NCBI RefSeq assembly: GCF_008386635.1
Contig: NZ_VUOE01000001.1
Span: 868,001-932,000 of the forward strand
Direction: 5' to 3'
DNA length: 64,000 nt
Source of the DNA: Maribacter flavus
Lineage (GTDB): Bacteria; Bacteroidota; Bacteroidia; Flavobacteriales; Flavobacteriaceae
Numbering within the stretch: position 1 is the stretch's first letter; every line of letters begins with the position of its first letter. A program made the position numbers and the translations under genes. Positions 980 to 16,546 of this stretch are shown here, in pieces. The notes beneath the pieces are model-generated. The model searched no databases and was not told the DNA's origin. It was given only the letters and a program-made list of their open reading frames with translations.

Positions 980-1207
980 ATGAAAGATTCAGTCTACGTT
1001 TGGGTAGTGATTACCACATTGGCCTTGGTCACGGTCACCATAATGTCCGTAATGAACCTCCCCTTTAATTGGATATTTTATTGCACCGTGCTAGGCCAGG
1101 CCCTTATTGTCATCATGGTCTATAAAGTACTGACCGATAATTACAAGACGGACAAAACATTCAAGGATTTTTACGAGGACAATCCCATTGGGAACCGCGT
1201 TAATTAG
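980..1207 (+). CDS. small two-helix membrane protein
   Basis: A 75-residue protein with two hydrophobic stretches (about residues 7-25 and 31-48) and a charged C-terminus ending in Asn-Arg-Val-Asn. It has no motif I can name. Its stop overlaps by eight bases the 3' end of the convergent universal stress protein gene. It is judged real because the ATG start, two clean TM segments and charged tail look like a typical flavobacterial small inner-membrane protein and nothing better competes in this stretch. Function unknown. Confidence 0.6.
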   Translation: MKDSVYVWVVITTLALVTVTIMSVMNLPFNWIFYCTVLGQALIVIMVYKVLTDNYKTDKTFKDFYEDNPIGNRVN

Positions 1208-2105
1208 GTACGACTACGTTTTCCCTCTTACTGGATTCCTTTAAATGGGAGGTCATGCCCAGTTCCGGTATGACCAGTAGCGGTATTTGGGTGTGAAATG
1301 CCACTCTTTTTACTACGGGCTCACGTACCAATTGTTCCATGTAACTGTGTTGGTAGTTCAACATGGCCAGTAAGTGAATGTCCATTTCCCTGGAAAAGAC
1401 CTCCAAGGTCTTGGAAACGGAATTCAACTCGGATACGGTGTGTACGTAATGCTCCACTTCACCCAGGTACTTGCGCAACATTCCCAAATTGAACAATTGA
1501 AGCTCGGACAGGGTCTTGATTTCATATTGTACATGTACGATCCGAACGGTGGCATCAAAAATGCCGGCCAGTTCCACCAAAGGCCTTAGCTCGGATTTGG
1601 TATAAAATCGGGTGAAATCCGTCGCGAAAGCGATTTCGGTCGGTTTTTGAAATTCAAAGTTTTGCGGAATGGCCAATACGGGACAGTCCTTTACGGATTT
1701 GATGACACGTACCGTATTGCTGCCCATGAAAACCTCTTCCATTCCTGTTGCCCCCGTGGTTCCCATAATGACCAGTTCAATGTCATAGGCCGAAATACTT
1801 TCAATGATCTCATCCACCAACAAACTAAAGGAAGAAATGGTCTCAAAATGATGATGCTCGTTCACAAAGTCATTCTTGACCCGCGCCAATAGATCATCCA
1901 GGCCCTTTTGGGAATATTTGGCGGCACTGTTCGTTAGCATACTTTCCTCAAAGGAAGCCGCCATAAACCTGCTGCCGGCGATGGCTGGGGTATAGGTATT
2001 CAATAAATAGAAGGTACATTCCTGATCCCAGAACATGGAAATGGCATACTTGATGGCATTGCAGGAATTATCCGAAAAGTCCGTAGGGATTAAAATATTC
2101 TTCAT
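1200..2105 (-). CDS. universal stress protein, two Usp domains
   Basis: 301 residues, the length of a tandem UspA-type protein. Domain 1 starts at the N-terminus (MKNILIPTDFSDNS) and carries the nucleotide-binding signature G-x2-G-x9-G-S around GTTGATGMEEVFMGSN. Domain 2 (from about residue 150) is more diverged. Family knowledge: Usp proteins bind ATP or act as stress and redox-related regulators in the cytoplasm. It lies downstream of and co-oriented with the Fnr-type regulator but has its own promoter: a perfect TGAC-AATT-GTCA dyad at 2161-2172 with a -7-like element at 2130-2137. It is therefore probably induced by low oxygen, as a second usp gene next to hemN also appears to be. Confidence 0.93.
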   Translation of the reverse strand: MKNILIPTDFSDNSCNAIKYAISMFWDQECTFYLLNTYTPAIAGSRFMAASFEESMLTNSAAKYSQKGLDDLLARVKNDFVNEHHHFETISSFSLLVDEIIESISAYDIELVIMGTTGATGMEEVFMGSNTVRVIKSVKDCPVLAIPQNFEFQKPTEIAFATDFTRFYTKSELRPLVELAGIFDATVRIVHVQYEIKTLSELQLFNLGMLRKYLGEVEHYVHTVSELNSVSKTLEVFSREMDIHLLAMLNYQHSYMEQLVREPVVKRVAFHTQIPLLVIPELGMTSHLKESSKRENVVVPN

Positions 2106-2129: not shown

Positions 2130-2137
2130 TAAAATTA
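2130..2137 (-). promoter_or_regulatory. -7 promoter element of usp
   Basis: Read on the minus strand this is TAATTTTA, seven of eight matches to the Bacteroidota TAnnTTTG -7 element. Its centre is 33 bp from the centre of the Fnr-type dyad at 2161-2172. The start codon lies 24 bases further downstream. Confidence 0.6.
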
Positions 2138-2191: not shown

Positions 2192-2881
2192 TTAAAAACC
2201 TTCCACAAGGTTTTTTAGCGCCTTTTCATCCTTGATGCCGATTCTTTTCCCGGAAGTTTTTAGATACCCTTTTTTCTTAAATTCTGAAATGATTCGGATA
2301 CACGATTCAATGGCCGTACCTACCACATTGGAAATATCCTCCCTGGACAACACAAGTCTTAGATAGCCTTCCTCATCCTCTCCAAAATTATTTTTCAGGT
2401 ACAGGAAAGCTTCCGCCATTCGTTGTTTGACGTTTTTTTGGCTCATGTTCACGATAACGTCATCGGCCTCCTTCAGATCGTGGGCCATATGCCGTAATAC
2501 CTCAAGGGTAAAATTGGGATTGGTATGCAAACTGGAAACTATTCCTTCCTTGGGTATGAAACAAACCTCCATATCACTTACGGCAATGGCGCTCAAGTTT
2601 ACGTTTTCTTCCGCCACCACGGAGCGTTGTCCTATGACCTCCCCCTTGCTCGCAAGCTTAACGATCTGATCTTTACCGTTTTCACTTAATTTGGATAATT
2701 TGGATACCCCATCGCGTACGCAAAATACGCCATCCAACTTTTCACCCTCCTTAAAGAGGGCCTCTCCCTTTTTGATTGTTCGTGTAGTTTTTGAATCGGA
2801 CACCCTTTTTAATTCCTCCTTGGACATAGCGCGTAAGGAGTTAAATTGCCGTACGATACAATTTTCACATCTGCTTTCCAT
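2192..2881 (-). CDS. Crp/Fnr-family transcription regulator, Fnr-like
   Basis: 229 residues: N-terminal Cys pair (C5-x2-C8), cyclic-nucleotide-binding-fold effector domain (about 25-145), long dimer helix, and C-terminal winged helix. The recognition helix GTAIESCIRII aligns with that of E. coli FNR and keeps the Glu and Arg that read the TGA part of the half-site, which agrees with the TGAY/RTCA dyads found nearby. No cAMP-pocket signature is obvious. The early CxxC plus later cysteines make an iron-sulfur or redox-sensing role plausible, but the fourth cluster ligand cannot be assigned by eye. It is divergent from ccoI and shares one operator with it (2937-2948), which suggests positive autoregulation. 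Confidence 0.9.
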   Translation of the reverse strand: MESRCENCIVRQFNSLRAMSKEELKRVSDSKTTRTIKKGEALFKEGEKLDGVFCVRDGVSKLSKLSENGKDQIVKLASKGEVIGQRSVVAEENVNLSAIAVSDMEVCFIPKEGIVSSLHTNPNFTLEVLRHMAHDLKEADDVIVNMSQKNVKQRMAEAFLYLKNNFGEDEEGYLRLVLSREDISNVVGTAIESCIRIISEFKKKGYLKTSGKRIGIKDEKALKNLVEGF

Positions 2882-2905
2882 TTAACTAATATTTACCTGA
2901 CCCTA

Positions 2906-2913
2906 CAAAAATA
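2906..2913 (-). promoter_or_regulatory. -7 promoter element of the fnr-like gene
   Basis: On the minus strand this reads TATTTTTG, a full match to TAnnTTTG. Its centre is exactly 33 bp from the centre of the shared dyad at 2937-2948, on the side facing the regulator gene. The predicted start of transcription is roughly 20 bases before its ATG. Confidence 0.62.
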
Positions 2914-2936
2914 ACAGCTTGAATTTACGTAAAAAC

Positions 2937-2948
2937 TGACAAATATCA
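2937..2948. promoter_or_regulatory. shared Fnr-type operator between fnr-like gene and ccoI
   Basis: TGACAAATATCA is an imperfect CRP/FNR dyad (TGAC-N4-ATCA) in the 121-bp divergent region. Elements resembling TAnnTTTG lie 33 bp away, centre to centre, on both sides (2906-2913 on minus, 2972-2979 on plus). One bound dimer could therefore activate both genes. Confidence 0.7.
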
Positions 2949-2971
2949 TATTTGTAACCGCATTGATTTCC

Positions 2972-2979
2972 AACCTTTG
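2972..2979 (+). promoter_or_regulatory. -7 promoter element of ccoI
   Basis: AACCTTTG matches seven of eight positions of TAnnTTTG. Its centre lies 33 bp downstream of the shared Fnr-type dyad centre and the ccoI ATG follows 24 bases later. Confidence 0.55.
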
Positions 2980-3002
2980 CCCCAGGTATAAGCAAATGTA
3001 TT

Positions 3003-5399
3003 ATGGAAAAGCAACCCTGTTATCACTGTGGGGACGATTGCGACTCCGAGAGTATTCAGTACGATGAAAAGTGCTTCTGTTGCAACGGTTGCAAAACGGT
3101 CTACGAGATTTTTTCGGAAAACGATTTATCCTATTATTACGACTTGCAAACTTCGGCAGGTTCTACGCCTACAGCCATAGAAGGCAAGTACGATTTTTTG
3201 GAAACCGAGCGTATCGTGGAAAAATTAACGGAATTCAACGACGGCAACCTACAGATCGTAAATCTCTACATTCCTTTAATACATTGTAGTTCCTGTATCT
3301 GGGTATTGGAAAACCTGAACAAGCTCAACCCGTTCATCTCCTCCTCCCAAGTAAACTTTTCCAAGAAAACGGTACGGATTTCCTATAACAGCCAAAAAAC
3401 CTCTTTAAAGGACGTGGTGGTGCTACTGGCCAGAATTGGTTACGAACCCTATATATCCTTGGAGGATATTGATGGAAAAGAAAAAAAGGTAGACCGAAGC
3501 CTTATTTATAAGTTGGGCGTCGCCGGATTTGTTTTTGGTAACGTGATGTTCCTTTCCTTTCCGGATTATTTTGATCTGAGCTCCAGCAAAACTTCCGGTG
3601 GCGAATTTTGGTTGAACCAATATGAAGTGGTTTTTAGATGGCTGATGTTCGCCTTTTCACTTCCCGTCGTTTTTTATGCAGGTGCGGACTACTTTGTTTC
3701 GGCCTATAAAGGCCTTCGTTCCAAAATCCTGAACATTGACGTTCCCATTTCCTTGGGTATTTTGGTACTTTTTGTACGAAGTACCTTGGAAATTATGTTC
3801 GATTGGGGAAGCGGCTTTTTTGACTCCCTTACAGGTTTGGTCTTCTTCCTGCTTCTAGGGAAGTTCTTCCAACAAAAAACCTATTCCTTTCTCTCTTTTG
3901 AACGGGACTATAAATCGTATTTCCCTATCGCGGTCACCAAAATTAATGATGATGGTACCGAGGAAAGTACCCAAGTGCACGAAATCAAACAGGGCGACCT
4001 GCTATTGATCAGAAACGGGGAACTGATTCCGGTAGACGGACTCCTATATAAAGGCAAAGCACAGATTGATTACAGTTTTGTAACGGGGGAATCGGTCCCT
4101 GTGGAGCGGGAATTTGGCGACAAAGTTTTCGCCGGAGGGAGGCAAATGAACGGCCCCATTGAAGTGGAGGCCTTAAAATCGGTTTCCCAAAGTTACCTCA
4201 CCCAGCTTTGGAGCAATTCGGTCTTTAAAACGGACAAATCCACCCGATTCCAAAACATCACCGATAGCATTGGAAAACGCTTTACCATTGGGGTATTGAC
4301 CATTGCTTTTTTGGCCACAGCCTACTGGTTGTTTTTTGACCCGTCCTTGGCAATGAACGTTTTTACGGCGGTGTTGATCATCGCATGCCCGTGCGCCATA
4401 GCCTTGGCCTCGCCTTTCACCCTGGGCAATATGCTCCGCATCTTTGGTCAGAAGAAATTTTACTTGAGGGATACCGGTGCCATTGAGCAATTGGCACAGA
4501 TAGATACCGCTATTTTTGATAAGACCGGGACCATTACTACTTCCAAACAAAGTACGGCCACCTATCAAGGCATGCCGTTGACAAAGGAAGAGGAATCCCT
4601 TCTAAAAAATACCTTGAGGGCCTCCAACCACCCGTTAAGCAGGACCTTGTACGATATTTTATCGGACCATAACATTTACACGTTGGACGATTACGAGGAA
4701 CATCTTGGCAAAGGCCTGGAAGGAAGTAAGGGCGACAGACATATAAAAATAGGCTCCTCTGAATTTGTGGGCAGGGAAGAGGTTTCGGACAATTTGAACA
4801 CGGCGGTGCACGTAGCGAGCAACAATGCGTACAAGGGCAAATACGTGTTTCACAATCAATACAGGGAAGGTGTTTCCGAAGTCTTTGAACAAATGTCGGA
4901 ACAACTACAATTGGCCATTCTTTCCGGGGATAACGAGGGCGAAAAACGCAACTTGGAAAAACTGTTGCCCAAATTGACTCCGTTGTATTTCAACCAAAAA
5001 CCGGAGGACAAACTGGCCTTTATCACTTCCTTACAGGAACAGGGCAAAAAAGTCCTTATGGTAGGTGACGGATTGAACGATGCCGGTGCCCTCGCCCAAG
5101 CGGAAGTGGGTATTGCCATATCGGAAAACATTAATGTATTCTCCCCCGCCTGTGATGGTATTATGGATGCATCAAAATTCCAGCAATTGTACCAATACAT
5201 CATCGCCTCCAAAAAGGCCATGAAAATCATAAAGCTCAGTTTTTTATTGTCGCTCCTTTACAATGTAGTGGGACTCTATTTTGCGGTTACCGGGCAACTG
5301 GAACCCGTTATCGCGGCCATTTTAATGCCCTTGAGTTCCATTAGCGTGGTTGGGTTTACAACGCTAATGACCAACCTTTTGGGCAAAAAATTAAAGTAA
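3003..5399 (+). CDS. ccoI: copper-transporting P-type ATPase CcoI
   Basis: 798-residue P1B-type ATPase. In order: a Cys-rich N-terminal metal-binding region (C6-x2-C9 and a C-x-C-C-x2-C cluster near residue 25), a heavy-metal-associated domain with C95-S-S-C98, membrane helices, actuator domain with TGES, the intramembrane C462-P-C464 copper motif, the phosphorylation site D506-KTGT, the HP motif of the nucleotide domain, and GDGLND near 688. The extra N-terminal Cys domain and the neighbouring cco genes make it the copper supplier for cbb3 oxidase, not a detoxification CopA. It exports Cu(I) across the inner membrane for CuB assembly. It is probably Fnr-activated. ccoS follows after 93 bases with its own promoter. 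Confidence 0.95.
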   Translation: MEKQPCYHCGDDCDSESIQYDEKCFCCNGCKTVYEIFSENDLSYYYDLQTSAGSTPTAIEGKYDFLETERIVEKLTEFNDGNLQIVNLYIPLIHCSSCIWVLENLNKLNPFISSSQVNFSKKTVRISYNSQKTSLKDVVVLLARIGYEPYISLEDIDGKEKKVDRSLIYKLGVAGFVFGNVMFLSFPDYFDLSSSKTSGGEFWLNQYEVVFRWLMFAFSLPVVFYAGADYFVSAYKGLRSKILNIDVPISLGILVLFVRSTLEIMFDWGSGFFDSLTGLVFFLLLGKFFQQKTYSFLSFERDYKSYFPIAVTKINDDGTEESTQVHEIKQGDLLLIRNGELIPVDGLLYKGKAQIDYSFVTGESVPVEREFGDKVFAGGRQMNGPIEVEALKSVSQSYLTQLWSNSVFKTDKSTRFQNITDSIGKRFTIGVLTIAFLATAYWLFFDPSLAMNVFTAVLIIACPCAIALASPFTLGNMLRIFGQKKFYLRDTGAIEQLAQIDTAIFDKTGTITTSKQSTATYQGMPLTKEEESLLKNTLRASNHPLSRTLYDILSDHNIYTLDDYEEHLGKGLEGSKGDRHIKIGSSEFVGREEVSDNLNTAVHVASNNAYKGKYVFHNQYREGVSEVFEQMSEQLQLAILSGDNEGEKRNLEKLLPKLTPLYFNQKPEDKLAFITSLQEQGKKVLMVGDGLNDAGALAQAEVGIAISENINVFSPACDGIMDASKFQQLYQYIIASKKAMKIIKLSFLLSLLYNVVGLYFAVTGQLEPVIAAILMPLSSISVVGFTTLMTNLLGKKLK

Positions 5400-5430: not shown

Positions 5431-5442
5431 TGATAAATGTCA
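5431..5442 (+). promoter_or_regulatory. Fnr-type operator upstream of ccoS
   Basis: TGATAAATGTCA, a TGAT-N4-GTCA dyad in the ccoI-ccoS gap. The flanking bases (CTGA-Y-AAAT-R-TCATATTT) are nearly identical to the shared site at 2937-2948, which suggests they diverged from a common promoter arrangement. Its centre is 33 bp from the -7 element at 5466-5473. Confidence 0.7.
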
Positions 5443-5465: not shown

Positions 5466-5473
5466 TAATTTTA
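5466..5473 (+). promoter_or_regulatory. -7 promoter element of the ccoS-NO-Q-P operon
   Basis: TAATTTTA, seven of eight matches to TAnnTTTG and the same variant as at the usp promoter. It is centred 33 bp downstream of the dyad centre at 5436.5 and 19 bases before the ccoS ATG. Confidence 0.6.
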
Positions 5474-5492
5474 CCCCGAAATTCAGGTAGGT

Positions 5493-5696
5493 ATGAGTGT
5501 AATATATGTGTTATTGGCCATTAGTATCATCGTAGCCATTGTCTTTTTTGCAGCGTTCATTTTCTCGGTAAAAAATGGGCAATATGACGATTCCTATACG
5601 CCATCCGTCCGGATGCTCTTTGAGGACGAATTGGTAAAACAGAAAAAGAGTTTACAAAAATCCAATATGGATACATCAATAGAATCAAATAACTAA
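5493..5696 (+). CDS. ccoS: cbb3 oxidase maturation protein CcoS
   Basis: 67 residues with one N-terminal transmembrane helix (about 3-26) followed by the hallmark short hydrophilic tail containing KNGQYDD. This is the size and shape of the CcoS family, which is needed for cofactor insertion into cbb3 oxidase. It is the first gene of the oxidase operon, and the ATG of ccoNO begins six bases after its stop. Confidence 0.9.
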   Translation: MSVIYVLLAISIIVAIVFFAAFIFSVKNGQYDDSYTPSVRMLFEDELVKQKKSLQKSNMDTSIESNN

Positions 5697-5702
5697 TCAA
5701 CT

Positions 5703-7904
5703 ATGGAAGTACAGCAGTTTTATTACGATAACAAAATCGTAAAAAAGTTCATCTATGCCACAATGCTTTGGGGTATTGTTGGTATGTCCGTTGGCCTATT
5801 ATTGGCCTTTATGTTCTTGTTCCCGAATGTTACGGACGGAATTTCTTGGCTCAGTTTTGGCCGTTTAAGACCCTTGCACACCAACGCGGTCATTTTTGCC
5901 TTTGTAGGTAATGCCATTTTTGCCGGTGTGTATTATTCGACACAGCGCCTCCTTAAGGCACGAATGTTCAGTGATGTGCTGAGCAACATCAATTTTTGGG
6001 GCTGGCAATTGATCATTGTGGCCGCAGCCATTACGTTGCCATTGGGAATTACCACATCTAAGGAATATGCGGAATTGGAGTGGCCCATCGATATTGCCAT
6101 TGCCCTTGTGTGGGTAGCCTTTGGGGTCAATCTGATCGGAACCATGATCAAAAGAAGACAACGCCATTTATATGTTGCCATTTGGTTCTACTTGGCGACT
6201 TTTGTAACGGTTGCCGTACTTCATATCTTCAATAGTTTGGAGTTACCGGTAAGTGCCTTGAAGAGCTACTCCGTATATGCCGGGGTACAGGATGCCTTGG
6301 TACAATGGTGGTATGGCCACAACGCGGTTGCCTTCTTCTTGACAACCCCATTCTTGGGATTGATGTACTATTTTGTTCCTAAAGCGGCGAACAGGCCTGT
6401 ATATTCCTATAGACTTTCCATAGTTCACTTTTGGTCCTTGATATTCATTTATATCTGGGCAGGACCTCACCACTTGCTATACTCCGCATTGCCGGATTGG
6501 GCCCAAAACCTTGGTGTTGCCTTTTCGGTCATGTTGATCGCTCCTTCCTGGGGCGGTATGATCAACGGCCTTTTGACCTTGAGGGGTGCTTGGGACAAGG
6601 TTCGTACGGACCCAACACTTAAATTTATGGTAGTTGCGATTACAGGGTACGGGATGGCCACTTTTGAAGGTCCAATGCTTTCCTTAAAGAACGTAAACGC
6701 CATAGCCCATTTTAGCGACTGGATCATTGCCCACGTACATGTAGGTGCCTTGGCTTGGAACGGTTTCTTGACCTTTGGTATGATCTATTGGTTGGTTCCC
6801 AAAATGTTCAAGACCCGTTTGGCTTCGGTAGGAATGGCAAACTTCCACTTCTGGATTGGGACCCTAGGTATCATATTATATGCGCTGCCCATGTATGTAG
6901 CCGGTTTCACCCAGGCCTTGATGTGGAAAGATTTTAATCCGGATGGAACCTTGGTCTACGGTAACTTCTTGGAAACCGTAAACGAGATCATCCCAATGTA
7001 TTGGATGCGTGCTATTGGGGGTAGTCTTTACATTGTAGGTGCCATAGTTATGGTGTACAATATCGTTGTTACCATCAAATCCGGTCAAAAAGTGGAGGAT
7101 GAGTTGGCCGAAGCCGCTGCCCTTACCCGGGTATCCAAAAACAGGACCGCAGGGGAAACCTTCCACACATGGTTGGAGCGTAAACCCATCCAATTGACCA
7201 TTTTGGCTACCGTAGCCATTCTGATAGGTGGTATTGTACAAATTGTACCAACCATCATGGTGAAGTCCAATATTCCTACCATCACCAGTGTCAAACCTTA
7301 TACACCGTTAGAATTGGAAGGAAGGGACCTATATATACGCGAAGGTTGTGTAGGATGCCATTCCCAAATGATCAGGCCATTTAGAAGTGAGGTAGAACGC
7401 TATGGGGAATATGCCAAGGCCGGTGAGTTCGTATACGACCACCCATTCCTTTGGGGAAGTAAGAGAACGGGTCCTGATTTGCTACGGGTTGGTGGAAAGT
7501 ATTCGGATAACTGGCACTTAAACCACATGTACGATCCACAAACGACCTCCTCCGGTTCCATAATGCCCTCCTACTCCTGGTTGGTACGCAACAGACATGA
7601 CAGAAGTGGGGTTCAGGACAAAATGGAGGCCATGGTTACCTTGGGAGTACCTTATACCGATGAGGATATTGCCAATGCCGAAGCCAGTATGAGCGAACAG
7701 GCCATACAAATTGAGAAGAACCTCTATAGCGACCCGGATTTTGCATCGACCTACGAGGCCGATAAAAAATACGCCGCTGAAAACGGGGAGGAATTCATTG
7801 AAATGCGCGACAGGGAAATTGTGGCCATGATCGCCTACCTACAACGATTGGGTACGGATATAAAAATTAAGGAAACCAACGAATTAATCTCAGAAAATAA
7901 ATAG
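5703..7904 (+). CDS. ccoNO: cbb3-type cytochrome c oxidase, fused CcoN-CcoO subunit
   Basis: 733 residues joining two subunits that are separate in Proteobacteria. Residues 1 to about 480 are CcoN, a polytopic haem-copper oxidase subunit I with the expected His motifs ([29 protein letters not shown]). After a hydrophilic linker and one more TM helix (about 500-520) comes CcoO with a single c-type haem site C549-x2-C552-H553, and a downstream Met-containing region as probable axial ligand. Together they form the oxygen-reducing core and first electron-entry cytochrome in the inner membrane. N-O fusion is common in Bacteroidota. It is co-transcribed with ccoS, ccoQ and ccoP. Confidence 0.95.
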
Positions 7905-16503: not shown

Positions 16504-16511
16504 CAAAGCTA
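16504..16511 (-). promoter_or_regulatory. -7 promoter element of hemN-usp
   Basis: Read on the minus strand this is TAGCTTTG, a full match to TAnnTTTG. Its centre is 33 bp from the Fnr-type dyad centre at 16540.5. Confidence 0.65.
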
Positions 16512-16534: not shown

Positions 16535-16546
16535 TGATAATTGTCA
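16535..16546 (-). promoter_or_regulatory. Fnr-type operator upstream of hemN
   Basis: TGATAATTGTCA, a TGAT-N4-GTCA dyad differing by one base from the perfect palindrome at 2161-2172. It has the same 33-bp relation to the -7 element as at the cco and usp promoters. On the opposite side, towards the nucleotidyltransferase, no -7-like element sits at this distance. Confidence 0.72.

Follow-up and report, generated by a model that had tools for sequence, protein, structure and literature searches.

The closest described relatives of the arrangement reported here are the class II promoters activated by FNR in Escherichia coli and the FNR-type circuits of rhizobia. In E. coli 19 of the 23 directly FNR-activated promoters with a known start have the operator at -41.5 +/-4 (PMC3688515, accessible part), and the class II promoters described there (narG, dmsA and others) resemble the present locus in having an operator at -41.5, an FNR-type dyad and low-oxygen genes behind it. 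The differences are that here one operator would serve two opposite promoters, that the promoter box is the sigma-A box TAnnTTTG and that the dyad arms are TGAY/RTCA.

As described in the accessible part of PMC7888657, FnrN of Rhizobium is likewise an FNR-type regulator of cbb3 genes (fixNOQP) and is autoregulated, with a distal site that activates and a proximal site that represses the regulator gene. There each sign has its own site within one promoter, whereas here a single site has the promoter 33 or 19 bp away according to lineage; fnrN is also described in that part of the source as lying outside any cluster. The K-box of fxkR9/fixK9b in R. leguminosarum, from the same source, resembles the present case in being one operator common to two adjacent regulatory genes, although it is predicted to induce the one and repress the other, while here both sides lie at an activating distance. 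With precedents for both autoactivation and autorepression in FnrN, the kind of circuit is already known. The two-register arrangement, this particular operator and the promoter shift described below were not found in a search of the literature outside subscription papers. The Bacteroidota, for which little was found in the literature on low-oxygen regulators, gain from this locus a concrete candidate operator, a spacing rule and a list of predicted targets.

The gap between the regulator gene and ccoI

The window is the whole 64,000-nucleotide stretch of DNA that was analysed, from the marine flavobacterium Maribacter flavus. Within it a gap of 121 bp (2882-3002) separates a regulator gene, with its ATG on the complementary strand at 2881, from ccoI, with its ATG at 3003. 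The gap carries a dyad, TGACAAATATCA, of the form TGAY-N4-RTCA at 2937-2948 (centre 2942.5), which is a predicted operator of Crp/Fnr type shared by two promoters. The -7 element of the regulator promoter, TATTTTTG, lies on the minus strand at 2906-2913 (centre 2909.5) and that of the ccoI promoter, AACCTTTG, on the plus strand at 2972-2979 (centre 2975.5), the latter being off-consensus at -12. Each is 33 bp from the dyad counted centre to centre, with 23 bp from edge to edge, and the operator is exactly midway between the two back-to-back predicted promoters. The sequence-only reading of the window had reported this geometry, with a full match to TAnnTTTG facing the regulator, and both points hold (the full match runs from 2913 to 2906 on the minus strand). 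Its count of 7/8 for the ccoI side is reached only if both n are counted, the match being 5/6 of the specified letters.

In flavobacteria the -7 box TAnnTTTG occupies -12 to -5, according to the accessible part of PMC9723704, and together with the 33-bp spacing this gives predicted starts at 2901 for the regulator and 2984 for ccoI. The dyad centre then falls at -41.5 for both promoters, so that by predicted start the operator is centred where a class II operator is expected, at about -41.5.

Conservation of the elements and the case for a shared operator

Relatives were collected in two ways. The first set began with loci carrying a relative of the regulator, of which the best 80 out of 568 were kept; 78 of these have a ccoI hit, in every case divergent, and leaving out the 2 loci without such a hit and 9 with a long gap gave 69 relatives with a gap below 310 bp, which with the window make up a set of 70 regions. 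No two of the 70 sequences are the same, yet they come from related species and do not amount to 70 independent tests. A family set of 147 genomes with ccoI provided 146 ccoI upstream regions, G048 being without a gene start, and three of these regions (L162, L182 and L253) are shortened by contig ends. For the count of distances the 70-region set was joined with family regions to give 166 regions, with 50 of the 146 family regions omitted because they came from the window's own genome (already represented by the window), had no 8/8 dyad, lacked a divergent regulator hit at 320 bp or less, or had the dyad outside the gap. One row, G176, measures the promoter of a paralogue, since its nearest regulator hit is an inserted paralogue.

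In the 70 regions from the best 80 of 568 loci the dyad arms TGAY/RTCA are found 70 times, as is nAnnTTTG on the ccoI side at exactly 33 bp from the dyad. The element on the regulator side is present at 33 bp with at least 5/6 letters in 60/70 (6/6 in 57/70) and absent, that is below 5/6, in 10/70. For comparison, matches of at least 5/6 occur at 2% of all positions on either strand of these regions, the real elements included (349/16874). The spacers between the conserved blocks have a low information content in the 70-region profile, except for the bases beside the dyad, where the left arm is usually preceded by C or A and not T. Across the family an 8/8 dyad lies within 400 bp upstream of ccoI in 138/146 regions, and in 98 of these 138 a divergent homologue of the regulator is found within 500 bp of ccoI.

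The best reading of this arrangement, and one that is held to be fairly probable, is a class II operator shared by two divergent sigma-A promoters, with autoactivation by the regulator. The FNR-like regulator encoded next to it would bind the dyad at 2937-2948 as its operator, and at low oxygen its active dimer would bring polymerase to ccoI on the right and to the regulator gene on the left, so that the regulator is proposed to activate itself. The sign of this regulation is taken from promoter geometry as known from E. coli and rhizobia. As there is no conserved -33 TTG on either side in the 70-region profile, activator dependence is to be expected for both promoters. The sequence-only reading is supported in part: one operator stands at the class II position of two divergent predicted promoters, it is conserved far more than the DNA around it (70/70 and 60/70), its neighbour is FNR-like, and such sites recur before genes of low-oxygen type. 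That a single dimer activates both genes is retained as a prediction. The predicted starts are 83 bp apart, which would place the upstream DNA contacted by one polymerase inside the other promoter, and the two polymerases may compete or exclude each other. The sharp switch to the high-affinity oxidase, which had been expected from the feedback, is kept as a hypothesis; such competition could weaken its sharpness.

It is also conceivable, if unlikely, that the dyad activates ccoI only, and that the full-consensus -7 element of the regulator is constitutive and nearby by chance, with binding neutral or mildly repressive for it. This would fit the full consensus of that element in 57/70 regions from the best 80 of 568 loci and the wider conservation of the ccoI side, where the geometry is kept in 70/70 and, family-wide, in 120/146 regions, against 60/70 and 18/146 (at least 5/6) for the regulator side; the Muriicola loci L011, L017 and L073 have lost the regulator side and kept that of ccoI. 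A constitutive promoter needs no fixed register, however, and the regulator element is found at exactly 33 bp in 78/164 regions as against at most 4 within 3 bp of that distance.

The bases of the two -7 elements differ in a consistent way. That of the regulator has T at -12 in 60/60 regions with A at -11 and TTT at -8 to -6, while that of ccoI has T at -12 in 0/70 regions from the best 80 of 568 loci (C in 61, G in 5, A in 4) and in 4/120 family-wide. In other families of the class, of which 28 regions were read, the base is not T in 8/9 regions with a 33-bp element, and at the 16 other promoters with the same spacing in the window's own genome it is T in 15/16. It is possible that single bases tune basal strength at a common activator distance: the full consensus of the regulator promoter would allow some basal synthesis, and the off-consensus -12 should keep ccoI low until activation. 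A TTTG at 2951-2954 in the window, 17 bp before the ccoI -7 element, could act as the -33 element of the ccoI promoter; its G is present in only 2/70 regions from the best 80 of 568 loci.

A short motif, AGGTA, was seen in the leaders, without a fixed distance to the predicted start or the ATG. In the regions from the best 80 of 568 loci it occurs in 58/70 regulator leaders (2882-2900, minus strand, in the window), 57/70 ccoI leaders (2984-3002, plus strand) and 49/53 ccoS leaders (5474-5492, plus strand), and it is present in 77/121 family ccoI leaders. Among the window's 46 open reading frames of 150 aa or more it lies within 35 nt upstream only of ccoI and the regulator. As a general leader element it was rejected, being without clear enrichment behind TAnnTTTG genome-wide (23 matches against 18 for a reversed control), and it is therefore treated as peculiar to the locus.

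The regulator protein and sites elsewhere in the genome

The regulator (2192-2881, minus strand) is a protein of 229 aa with the two-domain architecture of the Crp/Fnr family (Pfam cNMP_binding, 1.3e-17, and HTH_Crp_2, 1.3e-14). Its best NCBIfam model is the Fnr model PRK11161, with a score of 111.2 bits that is below the curated cut-off of 228. By sequence it matches P. gingivalis 2gau and A. fischeri FNR best among the solved structures, and the first Foldseek hits are Crp/Fnr structures including A. fischeri FNR, from a modest model (pLDDT 75.6, pTM 0.57) and with TM-scores of about 0.5.

FNR proteins sense oxygen by a [4Fe-4S] cluster, which in E. coli FNR is bound by C20, C23, C29 and C122. 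Four cysteines of the window protein, C5, C8, C54 and C107, are invariant in 180/180 homologues, and in an alignment to A. fischeri FNR three of them (C5, C8 and C107) fall on cluster cysteines, while the position of the third N-terminal FNR cysteine holds N in 171, S in 8 and G in 1 of the 180. In FNR the recognition helix carries E209, S212 and R213, of which the E and the R align here and the S position is I. With three of the four cysteines aligned and the fourth position taken by N, S or G, the protein may work like FNR and is not filed as FNR, so that the name Fnr used in the sequence-only reading calls for caution. It could be that the three cysteines together with another ligand, or with C54, hold a cluster. 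A homologue from the Flavobacteriales was grouped near MalR, another regulator, in the accessible part of PMC8510549.

Two further Crp/Fnr proteins are encoded in the own genome, with 28% and 24% identity to the regulator, and one of these rather than the neighbour might be the main ligand of the dyad, the neighbouring gene then being a target and not the sensor. This is considered quite improbable. The genes of both paralogues have other class II sites, at 2.19 and 2.21 Mb, in their vicinity, and nine relatives have a second Crp/Fnr-like frame in the divergent slot. In these nine (L015, L037, L042, L050, L053, L057, L059, L060 and L068) the gap of 852-994 bp holds an extra open frame of 226-250 aa, which by its first residues is Crp/Fnr-like; a two-sided dyad lies between this frame and ccoI, its far side matching 6/6 in 9/9, and no exact dyad adjoins the regulator itself. 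This persistence of the two-sided dyad beside ccoI counts in favour of the shared class II operator. Against another ligand stand the divergent homologue of the neighbour in 98 of the 138 dyad-bearing family regions, the four invariant cysteines of its homologues and the low identity of the paralogues, so that the adjacent regulator is still preferred as the protein that would bind.

The gene to the right of the gap (3003-5399, plus strand) encodes a P-type ATPase with Pfam E1-E2_ATPase, Hydrolase and ATPase-cat_bd domains and an HMA domain of 23.4 bits, just under the cut-off of 24.8; from its neighbours and established knowledge we take it to be ccoI, for copper supply to the cbb3 oxidase. 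In another genome (G036:C9:129399-131657) the ccoI match has seven internal stops and is apparently a broken gene. Downstream of ccoI are ccoS (5493-5696, plus strand, Pfam FixS) and a single frame of 733 aa (5703-7904, plus strand) in which ccoN and ccoO are fused (Pfam COX1 and FixO). A second predicted operator, TGATAAATGTCA at 5431-5442, lies upstream of ccoS-ccoNO with TAATTTTA at 5466-5473, again 33 bp away, and this arrangement is found within 250 bp after ccoI in 52/65 relatives; the ccoS element ends in A, not G, in 21/22 of the printed rows that have it. Also at 33 bp, the predicted operator TGACAATTGTCA (2161-2172) upstream of a universal stress protein gene (1200-2105, minus strand) has TAATTTTA at 2130-2137 (minus strand), and the predicted operator TGATAATTGTCA (16535-16546) has TAGCTTTG at 16504-16511 before a minus-strand gene that is Radical_SAM by Pfam and hemN-like from a reading of its sequence.

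Across the own genome the pattern CAAANNTN{13,33}TGAYNNNNRTCA gives 43 dyad/-7 pairs, 18 of which have exactly this spacing, two of them from the gap 2882-3002; among the 21 spacings the other lengths have at most 3 matches each, and a reversed control pattern gives 9 in all. The first frames behind the 16 other sites matched a Pfam family in 13 cases and nothing in three. Among the matched frames are two Ribosomal_S30AE hibernation factors, a universal stress protein, a cytochrome c, a PfkB kinase, a patatin, a pyridine nucleotide-disulphide oxidoreductase, an MlaE permease, an HlyD protein, a zinc-type dehydrogenase and a radical-SAM protein whose sequence reads as HemN. Much of this predicted target list fits a control by low oxygen or dormancy and some of it is neutral. 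In F. psychrophilum the cbb3 oxidase and heme genes are raised under oxygen limitation (PMC9723704, accessible part).

The two-sided pattern of 74 bp occurs at 35 places in 29/199 family genomes, with a control of 0 across the 199, and 14 of the 35 are ccoI gaps, so two-sided sites occur elsewhere too. A second one in the own genome, outside the window at C1:2197096-2197169 (L269), has a -7 element at 33 bp on each side, one towards a hibernation-factor gene and the other towards a divergent DUF2267 gene. It belongs to a cluster of class II sites at about 2.19-2.28 Mb of C1 (L269-L274), which stand before genes of universal stress, hibernation, PfkB kinase, patatin, MlaE and other proteins, with the two further Crp/Fnr genes nearby.

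A look-alike of the -7 box, CATATTTG, spans the dyad edge in the window (2947-2954) with a 5/6 match to TAnnTTTG, and as a rival promoter it was rejected, being kept at 5/6 in only 1/70 regions from the best 80 of 568 loci. Such a match and the commonness of TGAYN4RTCA alone, at 262 places in the own genome (107 for the reversed control), are what one would expect of a chance pattern in AT-rich intergenic DNA, an explanation that is nevertheless extremely improbable given the 70/70 footprint, the mode in the spacing, the control of 0 for the two-sided pattern and the poor conservation of the look-alike itself.

Regulator promoter at 33 or 19 bp

The count over 166 regions has two modes for a -7 element of at least 5/6 on the regulator strand, the one at 33 bp given above and a second at 19 bp in 64/166 regions, with every other distance from 8 to 69 bp occupied in at most 7. 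The 19-bp element is prominent in the profile of 43 compact regions, where it usually ends in A. At this distance the dyad would be at -27.5 and cover -33 to -22 of the regulator promoter, given the placing of the -7 box in the accessible part of PMC9723704, so that a bound dimer should block it. In relatives of this kind the same operator lies inside the promoter and should repress the regulator, and autorepression is what the 19-bp distance predicts. The positive feedback proposed in the sequence-only reading would hold for the window, which is at the activating 33 bp, and would not extend to the many relatives at 19 bp.

The two fixed distances of the regulator promoter probably decide whether the regulator boosts or damps itself. 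It is more tentatively suggested, as a possibility a little short of probable, that within the Flavobacteriaceae the regulator promoter has taken up either distance on an invariant operator, and that a displacement by 14 bp flips autorepression to autoactivation, and in the other direction too, with the control of ccoI unchanged. If this is true, the sign of the autoregulation of an oxygen regulator could be read from one genomic distance and compared across lineages, and matched pairs would be at hand, such as the Eudoraea-like 19-bp rows within the 33-bp clade, in which the sign of the feedback differs with the operator and target promoter held constant.

The distribution of the two distances was followed on a tree of 150 regulator rows made by a quick method, with SH-aLRT support only and a midpoint root, in which rows were labelled by their best-scoring distance and the label 19 pools rows at 19 bp (59), 20 bp (3) and 21 bp (6). 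All 33-bp rows belong to a single 75-row clade (support 94) except for G180, a doubtful row labelled 33 that matches equally well at 41 bp, and the rows outside the clade are mostly 19 or unlabelled. Inside the clade 19 bp recurs for L040, for L066/G032 (99) and for an Eudoraea-like group of seven rows (support 96), and the distance is 21 bp in two Muriicola rows that are identical. With all other rows disregarded, 5 changes between 19 and 33 are enough on this tree, and 15 are needed for 33 against all rows; a FastTree run with earlier labels (G068, G109 and G180 as 33) gave 8 changes. As many branches are weak (61/141 open), as six row pairs across the two collections have proteins that are identical or nearly so, and as the root is not inferred, the direction and number of the changes are provisional.

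Class-wide outgroups had ccoI in 43/80 genomes, and of the 28 loci read outside the family 9 have, before ccoI, a dyad together with a 33-bp element of at least 5/6. A neighbouring divergent regulator hit (35-38%) is present in only 3 of these outgroup loci, none with a 19- or 33-bp element, and the ancestral distance is thus not fixed by them. For a relic of the 19-bp element within the 33-bp clade there is weak support at most. Over all 60 regions with the 33-bp element 19 bp is not prominent (15/60, with 16 and 17 at 11 and 12 bp). Among 29 Maribacter-like regions, which are related rows, 19 bp scores highest of the distances 9-30, with a mean of 3.0/6, and reaches at least 4/6 in 13/29 against 7/29 for the next distances.
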